NCBI GenBank assembly: GCA_024644805.1
Contig: JAHEHC010000011.1
Location: 1-32,044 of the forward strand
Length of the DNA stretch: 32,044 bases
Source: Flavobacterium sp.
Lineage (GTDB): Bacteria > Bacteroidota > Bacteroidia > Flavobacteriales > Flavobacteriaceae
Direction: 5' to 3'
Position numbers and translations under genes: made by a program. Shown in pieces: positions 4,290-24,538 of this stretch. The notes beneath the pieces were generated by a model. The model was not told the DNA's origin. It saw only the letters and a program-made list of their open reading frames with translations, and searched no databases. Position 1 is the first letter of the stretch. Each line of letters begins with the position of its first letter.

Positions 4290-6740
4290 CTAAAGAACTT
4301 TTGCCTCTTTAACTTTATACTTGGTTAATGCGATATCGATGACATCACTCATGTTCTTGACATAATGAAAAGTCAATCCTTTCAGATATTCCGGTTTGAT
4401 CTCCTCAATATCCTTTCGATTGCCCTCACATAATAGTATTTCTTTGATATGAGCCCGCTTAGCAGCCAATATCTTTTCCTTGATCCCACCAACAGGAAGC
4501 ACTTTACCTCTTAAGGTGATCTCACCAGTCATAGCAAGGCTTCTTTTTACTTTACGCTGTGTGAATAAGGAAACCAAAGAGGTTAACATGGTAATGCCGG
4601 CACTCGGGCCATCTTTAGGAGTTGCTCCCTCTGGAACGTGAATGTGAACATTATACTTTTCAAAGACATCCGGAGAAACACCCAATTTAGTAGAATTTGA
4701 TTTAATATACTCCATGGCGATTGTAGCAGACTCTTTCATGACCTTTCCAAGATTCCCAGTCAGTGTAAGAGCGCCCTTTCCCTTAGAAAATATTGATTCG
4801 ATGAATAAAATATCTCCTCCAAATCGTGTCCAGGCGAGCCCTGTTACCACTCCGGCCACATTGTTGTTCTCATATTTATCCCGTTCAAGTTTTGGGTGAC
4901 CCAAGACTTCCAAGATCAACGCATTGGTCACTTTCTTGTCGTAGTCTTCTTCCATAGCTATTTTCATCGCAGCATATCGCACCATCTTTGCGATCTTCTT
5001 CTCCAAACCTCTGACACCACTTTCACGCGTATAGCCTTCTACGATCCTTTCCAGTTGTGGTTTTCCGATTCTCAGATCACTCTTGGTCAAACCGTGATCT
5101 TTCAATTGTTTTGGAAGCAGATGGCGTTTTGCGATCTCTACTTTCTCCTCGATGGTATATCCGGTCATCTCGATGATCTCCATTCGATCTCTCAATGCTG
5201 GTTGAATGGTGTTCAAGCTGTTTGCAGTAGCGATGAACATGACCTTGGAAAGATCGTATCCAACCTCAAGGAAATTATCATAGAACGAAATATTTTGTTC
5301 AGGGTCCAATACTTCCAGCATAGCTGAAGAAGGATCACCTTGACTTCCAACGGCCAGTTTATCGATCTCATCCAATACGAACACCGGATTGCTGGTGCCT
5401 GCTTTTTTAATATTCTTAATGATCCTTCCAGGCATGGCTCCAATATAGGTCTTTCGATGGCCTCTTATCTCTGATTCATCTCGCATGCCACCCAATGACA
5501 TCCGTATGTATTTTCTACCCAAGGCTTCTGCCACCGATTTTCCCAAGGATGTTTTCCCGACTCCTGGGGGTCCATACAAACAGAGTATGGGAGATTTCAT
5601 ATCATTCCTCAACTTTAAAACGGCTAAGTGCTCGATGATCCTCTTTTTAACATCGTCCAACCCAAAATGATCCCGATCCAGTATTCTCCTTGCTTTTTTG
5701 AGGTCAAATTTATCTTTGCTGAAATCATTCCAAGGCAGATCGAGAAACAATTCAAGATAATTTCTCTGAATCCCATGTTCTGCAACCTGAGGATTCATAC
5801 GCTGGAGTTTATTCAATTCCTTTTCAAAATGCTTTCCAACCTCTTTACTCCATTTTTTTGCCTTAGCTTGTAGACGCATCTCTTCGATCTCCTCTTCTGA
5901 AGAAGACCCACCCAATTCTTCCTGAATGGTCTTCATTTGCTGATGAAGGAAATACTCTCGTTGTTGCTGACTGATATCGCTTTCGACCTTGGATTGAATA
6001 TCGATACGCAACGATAATTTTTGCAGTTCTATATTCATATAACGCAAGGTCTCCAAGGCACGTTCTTTAAGATCATTGATCTCCAACAATTTTTGCTTGT
6101 CTGAAACTGCAATGTTCAGGTTAGATGACACAAAATTGATCAGGAATGAGTTGCTCTTAATATTCTGAATGGCAAAAGCGGCTTCAGATGGTATGTTCGG
6201 GCTGTTCTTGATGATCTCCAATGCCTTTTCCTTGATGGAATCAATTATGGCCGTAAACTCTTCGTTATTCTTTGCCGGATGTGCTTCAGGAACTTCTCGT
6301 ATCGAGGCCGTCATATAGGGATCTTCCGTGATCATATTGGTCAACTCAAATCGTTTCTTTCCCTGTAGGATCACCGTTGTATTACCATCAGGCATTTTCA
6401 ACACCCTCAATATCATCGCAACGGTACCAAATGAATTGATATCAGAAAGGATCGGGTCCTCTACCATTTCGTCCTTTTGAGAGACCACTCCAATAACCTT
6501 ATTTCCATTATTAGCCTCATTAATCAATTTGATCGATTTATCCCTTCCTGCGGTAATGGGTATGACCACTCCAGGAAAAAGAACGGTATTCCTTAAAGGT
6601 AAAATGGGTAGAATCTCAGGTAATTCCTCTTTATTGATCGCATCCTCATCTTCAGGGGTCATTAAAGGGATCAGATCTGCATCTTCATTCAGATCTTGAA
6701 ATGACAAACTGTCGATGGACTTTAATTTTGCTCTTGCCAT
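4290..6740 (-). CDS. lon: ATP-dependent endopeptidase La (Lon)
   Basis: 816 aa. Lon N-domain ([19 protein letters not shown]), Walker [14 protein letters not shown], Walker [10 protein letters not shown], Ser-Lys catalytic region [11 protein letters not shown]. Confidence 0.98.
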
Positions 6741-18906: not shown

Positions 18907-19440
18907 TTATAAGAATGAGTAGCCTAAAGATAATGAGACCACCGAGTTCTTACCATCAACCCCATCGAATATATCGGTCAGACCAAAATTATAACGAGCA
19001 TCTGCTCGTATGCCTAAAGGAAAGTCATATCCCAAACCAATTACCCCGGTTAGATCAAACGATTCTGCTTTAGCAATATTTCCAAAGACTTCTCCAATAT
19101 TATCATCTACTATAAATCCAAATTGTGGTCCGGCTTGAATATTAAGTCCTTTAACAACAAAGTATTTGATAACTACAGGAACATTCACATAATTCAGGTC
19201 AATTTTCTCGGGATCAAAATCCGCTCCTTGTTGAGAATAGAGAAGATCTCCTTGAATTCCAACCTTGTCACTAAATTTAATTCCAGCGAATACACCGACT
19301 AAGAAGCCTGTTTTATTAGAAACTTCAGAGGCATCTTTAATGCTTGAAAAATTAGCTCCAGCTTTAATTCCAAAATCCAATCCCTGTGCAAAAGAAGAGA
19401 TTGAAATAAATGCAAATGCGATAATCAGTATTTTTTTCAT
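18907..19440 (-). CDS. Porin-family / OMP_b-brl outer-membrane beta-barrel protein
   Basis: 'LDFGIKAGANFSSIKDASEVSNKTGFLVGVFAGIKFSDKVGIQGDLLYSQQGA...LSLGYSFL'. Confidence 0.85.
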   Translation of the reverse strand: MKKILIIAFAFISISSFAQGLDFGIKAGANFSSIKDASEVSNKTGFLVGVFAGIKFSDKVGIQGDLLYSQQGADFDPEKIDLNYVNVPVVIKYFVVKGLNIQAGPQFGFIVDDNIGEVFGNIAKAESFDLTGVIGLGYDFPLGIRADARYNFGLTDIFDGVDGKNSVVSLSLGYSFL

Positions 19441-19532: not shown

Positions 19533-20078
19533 TTATAAAAATGAGTATCCGATAGAGAAAGAAGCAACAGAATTCTTACCATCATCTCCATCAATTATTT
19601 CAGTAAATCCTAAATTATAACGAGCTTCAATTTTTATTCTAGTCAGAAGGTCATAGCCAATTCCTACAACTCCGGTAAGATCAAATTTCTCAGCTTCAAC
19701 TATATCTCCATACACATCTTCAAAATTGTCATTCATTAAAAAACCGAATTGAGGTCCTGCTTGAATATTCAATCCTCTGATAAAATAGTATTTAAATAGA
19801 ACAGGAATATTGATATAGTTCAACTCGATCTTTTCAGGATCGAAGTCGGCTCCCTGCATAGAATAAAGCAGATCGGCTTGAATTCCAATAAAATCATTAA
19901 ATTTTACTCCGGCAAAAAAACCAACCTGAAACCCTGTCCTATTTGAGAGCTCAGTTGCATCAGTAATACTTGAAAAATTAGCACCTACTTTAATTCCAAT
20001 ACTACAATTACATTCCTTTGATTGGGAAAAGGACGATATGCTTAAAAACACAATAGCAATAAAAATAATTTTTTTCAT
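19533..20078 (-). CDS. Porin-family outer-membrane beta-barrel protein, close tandem paralog of 18907-19440
   Basis: Shares 'GADFDPEKI(D/E)LNY(V/I)N(V/I)PV', 'GLNIQAGPQFGF', 'DGKNSV(V/A)S' with its neighbour. Confidence 0.85.
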   Translation of the reverse strand: MKKIIFIAIVFLSISSFSQSKECNCSIGIKVGANFSSITDATELSNRTGFQVGFFAGVKFNDFIGIQADLLYSMQGADFDPEKIELNYINIPVLFKYYFIRGLNIQAGPQFGFLMNDNFEDVYGDIVEAEKFDLTGVVGIGYDLLTRIKIEARYNLGFTEIIDGDDGKNSVASFSIGYSFL

Positions 20079-22137: not shown

Positions 22138-23703
22138 CTACTTAGCAATATTTACTGCTCTGGTCTCTCTTATCACTGTAACTTTCACTTGACCCGGATA
22201 GGTCATATCGGTTTGGATCTTATTGGAGATACTGAATGAAAGTTCGGCTGCTTTTTCATCACTTACCTTGTCACTCTCTACCATGACTCTAAGTTCCCGT
22301 CCTGCCTGTATAGCAAAGGCCTTATTGACTCCTTTGAATCCGAAAGCCACATCTTCCAGATCCTTCAAACGTTGTATGTAAGAATCCAGTACCTGCCTCC
22401 TTGCACCAGGTCTTGCTCCACTTATCGCGTCACAAACCTGTACGATCGGTGATAATAATGTGTTCATTTCGATCTCATCATGATGGGCGCCTATCGCATT
22501 ACAGACATCCGGTTTCTCACCGTGTTTTTCAGCCCATTGCATACCCAGAATTGCGTGAGGAAGCTCTGTTTCGGTATCCGGCACTTTACCAATGTCATGC
22601 AAAAGGCCAGCTCTTTTGGCCAGTTTGGGGTTCAATCCCAATTCGGCTGCCATCACACCACATAGTTTTGCTACCTCTCTGGAATGCTGTAATAGATTTT
22701 GTCCATAAGAAGATCTGAATTTCATCCTTCCCACAGCTGTGATCAGTTGAGGATGCAGTCCATGAATTCCAAGATCGATCACGGTTCTTTTTCCAACCTC
22801 TTTGATCTCTTCCTCGATCTGCTTTTCGGTCTTTTTAACGATCTCTTCAATTCGAGCCGGGTGAATGCGTCCATCGGTCACTAATTTGTGAAGTGACAAT
22901 CTGGCGATCTCTCGTCTCACTGAATCAAAACAGGAAAGAATGATGGCTTCCGGCGTGTCATCAACAATGATCTCTACACCAGTTGCTGCTTCAAGAGCAC
23001 GAATATTCCTTCCTTCTCTACCTATGATCCTACCCTTCACATCATCACTTTCTAAGTTGAACACCGACACACAGTTCTCGATGGCCTCTTCGGTACCGAT
23101 TCTCTGAATGGTATTAATGACCACTTTCTTAGCTTCCTGTTGTGCAGTCAGCTTTGCCTCTTCCATAGAATTCTGAATATAGGCCATGGCATCGGTCTTC
23201 GCTTCATCTTTAATGCTTTCCAGGAGTTGCGATTTTGCTTCTTCCTCGGAGAGGCTTGAAATCACTTCCAATTGCTCTACCTGTCTTCTATGCAATTTAT
23301 CGACTTCGGTCTGCCTCTTTTTCAGATATTTTACACGGTCGTCGTAATCTTTTTTCTTTTCTTCGATCTCATCATTTAGTTTTTTCGACTTAGATAATTC
23401 ATTGGAGATCTGAGATTCTTTATCCCTAATTCTTTTTTCTGCATCGGAGATCTTCTTATCGCGTTGCAAGATCACTTTTTCGTGCTCTGCTTTTAATTCT
23501 ATGAATTTCTCCTTGGCTTGAAGGATCTTATCTTTTTTAAGGGTTTCAGCCTCTTTGGCAGCTTCCTTAGTAATAGATGCTGCTCTTTTCCTGGCCGATT
23601 TTATCATAAGTGAGGAATTGTTCCTCTCTATGATCTTGGCAATAATGAAACCGATGATGATCCCAACTATTGCAGCTATTGTTATTGTTACTATGTTATC
23701 CAT
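22138..23703 (-). CDS. rny: Ribonuclease Y
   Basis: 521 aa. N-terminal TM, long coiled coil, KH domain '[34 protein letters not shown]', HD 'LLHDIGK', C-terminal '[14 protein letters not shown]'. Confidence 0.97.
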
Positions 23704-23721: not shown

Positions 23722-23888
23722 AAAAAAAGCCTACATTAATAAAGGGATTTGTATAAACTCCTTAAAAACAAGTTTAGGGCTAACAAGCTGATCAAGTATC
23801 CGTTCAAGACGGCTCGCTTTTACAACTTTAACTCACCCTTTTTAAAGAATTCGTGTTGAGTTTACCAAAAAATAGTATTAATGTAGGC
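23722..23888 (-). ncRNA. ssrS: Probable 6S RNA (6S-Flavo type)
   Basis: Intergenic between zapA and rny. 13-bp closing stem GCCTACATTAATA/TATTAATGTAGGC (minus 5' end 23888-23876, 3' end 23741-23729) followed by a U7 tract. Internal pairings TAAACTC/GAGTTTA and CCGT-CTTGA-ACGG. About 160 nt, rod-like 6S geometry. Confidence 0.72.
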
Positions 23889-23913
23889 AGAAACCTTTGT
23901 ATTTTAAAGAACG

Positions 23914-24204
23914 TTAAGATAATTGCTCTTGCAACAATTGATTCATAGCCTTAAGCTTTTCTTCAATATGTTGCTTATCTTCTATCGTATCAATTTTACG
24001 CTGTTCAACCTGTGTTGCAAATTGCAATGCACACATGGCCAAAACATCTTGTTTATCCCTTACGGCATAACTTTTTTCAAACCGTTTGATCATTTCATCT
24101 ATCTTCTTAGACGCCTTCCTCAATCCCTCTTCCTGTTCCGGACTTATTGTTAGTGGATAGACTCTGTCTGCAATTGATAGTTTTATTTTCAGATGGTTTG
24201 CCAT
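23914..24204 (-). CDS. zapA: Cell division protein ZapA
   Basis: 96 aa. 'LKIKLSIADRVYPLTISPEQEEGLRKASKKIDEMIKRF' and coiled-coil C-terminus. Confidence 0.88.
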   Translation of the reverse strand: MANHLKIKLSIADRVYPLTISPEQEEGLRKASKKIDEMIKRFEKSYAVRDKQDVLAMCALQFATQVEQRKIDTIEDKQHIEEKLKAMNQLLQEQLS

Positions 24205-24213
24205 TATTTAAAT

Positions 24214-24504
24214 TTACTCGGAAAGTTGAGTGATACATTTATCAATTTCCCGAACTAAAGCATTTATTTTGAGCTTTGTATCTCGTTTATATTCGTCACT
24301 GCCCAGCATTGAATTTGCATATTTTAATGAGTCACAAGCGGTCCGCCATTCGTCGATCTCTTCTTTTAATCGATCCTGTTGCGATCTTAAGCTTGAGAGT
24401 TCATTCTCCAACTGTTCATTCTGGTTCTTTAGATCTTCATAATTCAGAAGAACTTTAGAAATTCTTTTTTCCAATGAATCAACAATTTCTGAAAGATCGC
24501 TCAT
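24214..24504 (-). CDS. Small coiled-coil protein (ZapB-like candidate)
   Basis: 96 aa, heptad-rich 'NQNEQLENELSSLRSQQDRLKEEIDEW'. 9 bp upstream of zapA on the same strand. Confidence 0.6.
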   Translation of the reverse strand: MSDLSEIVDSLEKRISKVLLNYEDLKNQNEQLENELSSLRSQQDRLKEEIDEWRTACDSLKYANSMLGSDEYKRDTKLKINALVREIDKCITQLSE

Positions 24505-24530: not shown

Positions 24531-24538
24531 CAAAGTTA
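24531..24538 (-). promoter_or_regulatory. Candidate -7 box (TAACTTTG) for the coiled-coil/zapA operon
   Basis: Exact TAnnTTTG on the minus strand 27 bp upstream of the ATG. No good -33 TTG. Confidence 0.35.

Follow-up and report, generated by a model that had tools for sequence, protein, structure and literature searches.

6S RNA is a known brake on RNA polymerase. In beta- and gammaproteobacteria it is encoded in a zapB-zapA-ssrS-(fau) unit (PMC7641849), and studies cited in that paper report that E. coli 6S RNA is cut from precursors and that a dicistronic ssrS-fau transcript is processed. For the Bacteroidota, the 6S-Flavo family (Rfam RF01685) was described by Weinberg et al. in 2010 (PMC2864571), a study of Flavobacterium psychrophilum detected 6S RNA there (PMC9723704), and the 6S RNA of B. 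thetaiotaomicron was found to be expressed together with pRNAs (PMC7366714). Antitermination by Nus factors that depends on a boxA element has been described for rRNA, suhB and gammaproteobacterial genes, in a survey of Nus targets that states non-coding RNAs to be outside its consideration (PMC5725501).

We analysed a stretch of 32,044 nt from Flavobacterium sp. (contig JAHEHC010000011.1; the window), in which a 6S-like RNA had been predicted on the minus strand, between zapA and rny. This locus is like the proteobacterial unit in that 6S RNA lies directly 3' of zapA and is followed by a co-oriented gene (as we checked in E. coli K-12), but the downstream gene is rny here and fau/EVE there, and no boxA was seen when one was sought in the E. 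coli zapA-ssrS gap. It is also like the rRNA and suhB systems, in that a GTTCTTT-type, boxA-like element opens a long untranslated stretch, but the known cases are rRNA and gammaproteobacterial genes, whereas the stretch here is 6S RNA. An earlier report of the zapA-6S-rny gene order is possible. The boxA-led operonic biogenesis of 6S RNA that we propose below appears to be new, with no earlier description found; a partial literature search, which the main survey of 6S dissemination (Wehner 2014) lay outside, yielded no paper linking 6S RNA with boxA and NusB.

Judged by its sequence and predicted fold, the feature is the 6S RNA of this organism and a member of a known family. The Rfam 6S-Flavo model matched positions 23755-23861 (minus strand) over 108 of its 108 positions, with a score of 115.3 bits against a gathering score of 85 (E = 3.9e-20). 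This was the single match in the whole assembly, a fragmentary genome of 182 contigs, and a search for plasmid copies of 6S RNA returned none. The complete RNA as predicted, which runs from the closing stem to the U tract (23722-23888, minus strand), scored 174.5 bits with our own covariance model R1, which counts the window sequence itself among its members. The model of the Bacteroides 6S RNAs, which belong to the same phylum (Bacteroidales-1, RF01693), was rejected as a better family, as it scored only 21.5 bits here (cut-off 60). The original prediction had named a search with the 6S-Flavo covariance model as a check, and the result of that search, together with the covariation of the closing stem described below, confirmed the 6S identity. 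The closest named relatives by RNase Y were marine Flavobacteriaceae.

The RNA of 167 nt is predicted to form a rod with a closing stem, an internal bubble and an apical stem, at a fold energy of -46.5 kcal/mol compared with -29.5 kcal/mol for shuffled sequences (z = -4.9; 0 of 200 shuffles were as good). Each structural element that had been described for it was found on the minus strand: a perfectly paired closing stem of 13 bp formed by GCCTACATTAATA (23876-23888) and TATTAATGTAGGC (23729-23741), an interrupted rod, the apical hairpin CCGT-CTTGA-ACGG (23800-23812), and a terminator-like U7 tract directly 3' of the closing stem (23722-23728). The fold also contains a second stem, with arms TTTGGTAAACTC (23858-23869) and GAGTTTATACAAA (23748-23760). 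We scored the window's own fold (42 pairs in 7 helices) in 40 sequences, mutually less than 80% identical, taken from the intergenic regions of relatives. Standard pairs made up 93.0%, both sides had changed at 32 of the 42 pairs, and the covariation score was 0.42, compared with 0.20 in shuffled alignments. Covariation was seen in all helices, including the closing stem, for which such a comparison had been suggested along with the prediction: its 12 scored pairs were 97.3% paired and 9 of them had changed on both sides (for example GCCTACATT/AATGTAGGC, GCCTGTATT/AATACAGGC and TCCCGCATC/GGTGCGGG). The second stem was paired in 93.4% of cells and the apical hairpin (helix 7) in 91.9%. Sliding the structure along the alignment lowered pairing from 93% to 31-44% in every version, a comparison that is biased, chiefly in the percentage paired, by the derivation of the structure from one of the 40 sequences; the double changes (208 cells, compared with 59 in shuffles) are the stronger evidence.

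In sequence and core structure this RNA is like 6S-Flavo, but the Rfam model stops short of the U tract and of both the closing and the second stem, parts that are conserved here, the two stems with covariation. A run of 5-10 U followed the closing stem in 143 of 144 loci, and the comparison among relatives indicates that the closing stem is conserved and real, though outside the Rfam model. The full-length structure supplied here for the family is thus an extension of it. To our knowledge, the Rfam entry for 6S-Flavo describes neither a boxA nor an operon. The 3' end has the form of an intrinsic terminator, a stable stem directly followed by a U tract, with a stem that encloses about 135 nt.

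The genes around the RNA are likewise on the minus strand. The first of two cell-division genes is a zapB-like coiled-coil gene (24214-24504), which scored 27.6 bits with Pfam ZapB, below the cut-off of 31.5, and which has a homologue in the corresponding position at 153 of 155 loci. It is followed by zapA (23914-24204; PF05164, 71.5 bits, E = 7.7e-20) and, after the 6S RNA, by rny, encoding the RNA-decay enzyme RNase Y (22138-23703; RNase_Y_N, PF12072, 126.6 bits, with HD and KH_1). These Pfam matches bear out the predicted position between zapA and rny. The close spacing noted there was also found, with the U tract ending at 23722 and the ATG of rny at 23703, so that the start codon lies 18 nt past the U tract. 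Both zapA and zapB were directly upstream of 6S RNA in 153 of 155 loci, the remaining two ending at a contig edge, and the order zapB-zapA-6S-rny was kept in every checkable relative.

At the level of the class, where 6S RNAs were called by covariance model (an earlier motif-based detector had missed divergent ones), zapA was directly 5' of rny at 99 of 105 readable rny genes and zapB was present at 97, mostly without 6S RNA. The zapA-rny gaps were of three kinds: empty ones of less than 80 nt (35 loci), longer ones without 6S RNA, and gaps of about 220-400 nt that contained it (26 loci). By these three kinds of gap and the 99 of 105 adjacencies, zapB-zapA-rny is the constant arrangement and 6S RNA an occupant of the zapA-rny gap. 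Directly before rny, 22 of 33 longer gaps without 6S RNA had a terminator-like hairpin and U run in a folding-based search (0-4 in shuffles), and a strict search for perfect hairpins found terminators in only 3 of 34. The 22 hairpin loci were L199, L200, L204, L205, L207, L208, L212, L215-L217, L222, L227, L236, L239, L241, L261, L265, L267, L268, L285, L296 and L299; their hairpins are either degenerate 6S RNAs or independent attenuators of rny.

Two elements go beyond the original prediction, a boxA-like sequence ahead of the 6S RNA and a single promoter before zapB. The first, ACGTTCTTTAAAAT (23901-23914, minus strand; an exact match), shares its first A with the zapA stop codon, which ends on that base, and leader alignments placed their strongest conserved block, ACGTTCTTTAAAATA, at this codon. 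In complete relatives, the rrn boxA AMGTTCATTGACATATTG is found before 23S, with a similar sequence before most 16S genes. When a weight matrix built only from these rrn boxA sequences was scanned across the last 60 nt of zapA, the intergenic region and the start of rny, the site at the zapA stop was the best match in 116 of 144 loci, compared with about 10% expected by chance. A strict GTTCWTT match was absent in 28 of 144 loci, several of which had one-base variants. At the class level, a GTTCTT accompanied the zapA stop in 24 of the 26 gaps where the covariance model detected 6S RNA and in 2 of the 70 where it did not (Fisher p = 4e-18, ignoring kinship; the loci span many families), and one of these two, L211, resembles by eye a 6S RNA that went undetected. 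6S RNA occurs with no recognisable boxA in family f5 (L202 and kin) and in L235. The match to rrn boxA of the same lineage, the position at the start of an untranslated stretch with flexible spacing (14-117 nt from boxA to 6S RNA at the class level), and the presence of genes for both NusB and Rho in this organism suggest that ACGTTCTTTAAAAT is a boxA-like, putative NusB/S10 antitermination site. A second conserved stretch of the leader, GTTACTGCC in most relatives and GTTTCTGCC here (23886-23894, minus strand), abuts the closing stem and may mark a 5' processing site. A copy of the boxA-like motif with one mismatch, ACGTTCTTTAAGAT, is present elsewhere in the window, at 6060-6073 on the plus strand.

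The covariance model also located 6S RNA away from zapA-rny, in six cases among 118 genomes (L320, L324, L327, L328, L332 and L333) that belong to several lineages of the class. A boxA preceded three of these, L327, L328 and L324 (in L324 as the rrn-like sequence ACGTTCATCGACATATCATTGGG), and in all three a promoter was found ahead of the relocated gene as well. The boxA-less three (L320, L332 and L333) had a promoter near the 5' end or none that was recognised; in L332 and L333 a TAnnTTTG box was found close to where 6S RNA begins. The L333 copy, which is Bacteroidales-like, has its own promoter and no boxA, and lies 3' of a ribosomal-protein gene that, by eye, we take to be rplT. Outside the context of 6S RNA, the boxA-like sequence GTTCTTTAAAATA was found in this organism's own genome between tRNA-Thr and tRNA-Tyr, in a tRNA cluster that precedes an EF-Tu-like gene (L339, ~1469-1482; G000:C121:14268-14281, minus strand), and the motif preceded tRNA-Tyr of the tRNA/tuf operon in most relatives tested (L350-L371). 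The relocated 6S genes, the tRNA cluster and the absence of the motif from gaps that lack 6S RNA argue that boxA goes with an untranslated stable RNA and not with rny; we therefore rejected it as a signal for rny, as half of the relocated 6S genes kept it.

Of 143 loci, 93% have a promoter-like sequence of the Bacteroidota type, TTG-N18-21-TAnnTTTG, ahead of zapB, compared with 2.8% of shuffled sequences, and it clusters 31-37 nt 5' of the start codon. In the window, the presumed operon promoter has the -7 element TAACTTTG (24531-24538, minus strand) and a -33 box that is degenerate in this genome. 6S RNA might instead have a promoter to itself where zapA ends, with GTTCTTT as part of it and two or more separate transcripts as the result. 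E. coli ssrS does have its own promoters, and a TAnnTTTG box lies directly 5' of relocated Bacteroidota 6S genes such as L332 and L333. We consider such a promoter here quite unlikely, since the same pattern occurred across the end of zapA and the 6S leader in 2.1% of 143 loci against 1.4% of shuffled sequences, where the signal before zapB was obvious, and a strict TAnnTTTG preceded 6S RNA in only 1 of 144 loci, within a scan that is blind to promoters of alternative sigma factors. The distance of 14-117 nt between the motif and 6S RNA would also be intolerable for part of a promoter, and the motif fits rrn boxA and is found again in the tRNA/tuf operon; for its unfixed spacing and its fit to rrn boxA we rejected GTTCTTT as a -7 element. 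A promoter of rny inside or just after 6S RNA, with the U tract as a full terminator that permits no readthrough, would have room in the 41 of 143 relatives whose 6S-rny gap is 46-165 nt, and would accord with the terminator-like hairpins found before rny in many relatives that lack 6S RNA. It is nevertheless rather improbable, as the scan found 0% inside 6S RNA (143 loci) and nothing above shuffles in the 6S-rny interval, in short or long gaps (the 41 relatives with more than 31 nt included), and in 102 of 143 relatives 10-31 nt separate the U tract from the rny ATG, too little for an intervening promoter. In addition, the 35 class-level loci with neither 6S RNA nor a terminator in a zapA-rny gap of less than 80 nt indicate operon transcription of rny. 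The simplest reading of these scans is a single transcription unit, zapB-zapA-6S-rny, with one promoter before zapB, in which rny would need readthrough past the 3' end of 6S RNA, and its expression would probably depend on transcription passing 6S RNA. Such a dependence on readthrough had been proposed for this locus, and our support for it is comparative, in that no promoter rose above background in or after 6S RNA, the U tract is close to the ATG in most relatives, and zapA and rny are paired as in an operon throughout the class, also where 6S RNA is missing.

The nature of the conserved motif and of the RNA itself could also be read otherwise. GTTCTTT may not be a boxA and may serve the 6S precursor alone, as a site of processing or of protein binding, a view to which the second conserved stretch, GTTACTGCC, lends some weight, in that a leader with such a stretch against the closing stem may carry processing signals; the motif of the 6S leader, GTTCTTTAAAATA, is also somewhat unlike the 23S boxA, GTTCATTGACATATTG. 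We nonetheless regard this as doubtful, as a matrix derived from rrn sequences only picked out the site, and the identical sequence is found in the tRNA/tuf operon, where there is no 6S RNA. The whole feature might also bear no more than a likeness to 6S RNA and be some structured RNA or an attenuator of rny. This would suit its location directly 5' of rny, where other lineages carry terminator-like hairpins, but we judge it extremely improbable given 115 bits with 6S-Flavo, full-length covariation and at least six genomes in which the same RNA has moved to a place apart from rny.

We therefore favor a reading in which 6S RNA is part of a zapB-zapA-6S-rny unit with boxA antitermination, a partial terminator and readthrough to rny, and assign it as a whole a probability of about two-thirds. 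What the analysis shows is the family identity, the covarying full-length structure, the conserved operon order, the position of the promoter-like sequence, and the conservation of the boxA-like element and its association with 6S RNA; co-transcription, Nus recruitment, partial termination, 5' processing and RNA polymerase binding are steps that we infer. RNA polymerase would start at the housekeeping promoter 5' of zapB and run past the stop codon of zapA, where boxA in the transcript would recruit NusB/S10, with NusA/NusG, as the ribosome leaves zapA. The Nus complex would then shield the untranslated 6S segment from Rho while the 6S rod folds, and the GC-capped closing stem and U tract would act as a partial terminator that forms the 3' end of 6S RNA, with polymerases that read through this end expressing rny. 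The 5' end of mature 6S RNA would be cut from the precursor, and the mature RNA would mimic an open promoter and hold the housekeeping RNA polymerase.

6S RNA, rRNA antitermination and mRNA decay are global controls that are usually handled separately, and one transcript would, if this reading is true, couple all three, with boxA guarding 6S RNA and the 6S 3' end gating rny. 6S RNA would thereby become one of the few targets of the Nus complex besides rRNA. A broader proposal, to which we give about even odds, is that Bacteroidota 6S RNA is produced in the manner of rRNA, with boxA/NusB antitermination acting on a polycistronic zapB-zapA-6S-rny precursor. The machinery of rRNA antitermination would then determine how much 6S RNA is supplied, and the efficiency with which the 6S rod acts as a terminator would balance that supply against RNase Y. 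The class-wide association, with boxA present where 6S RNA is in the gap, makes the coupling of the three controls testable directly in genetically tractable Flavobacterium species.

Elsewhere in the window, two outer-membrane beta-barrel-like proteins that resemble each other (177 and 181 aa), recognised by eye, are encoded in tandem on the minus strand (18907-19440 and 19533-20078), apparently as the result of a recent duplication.
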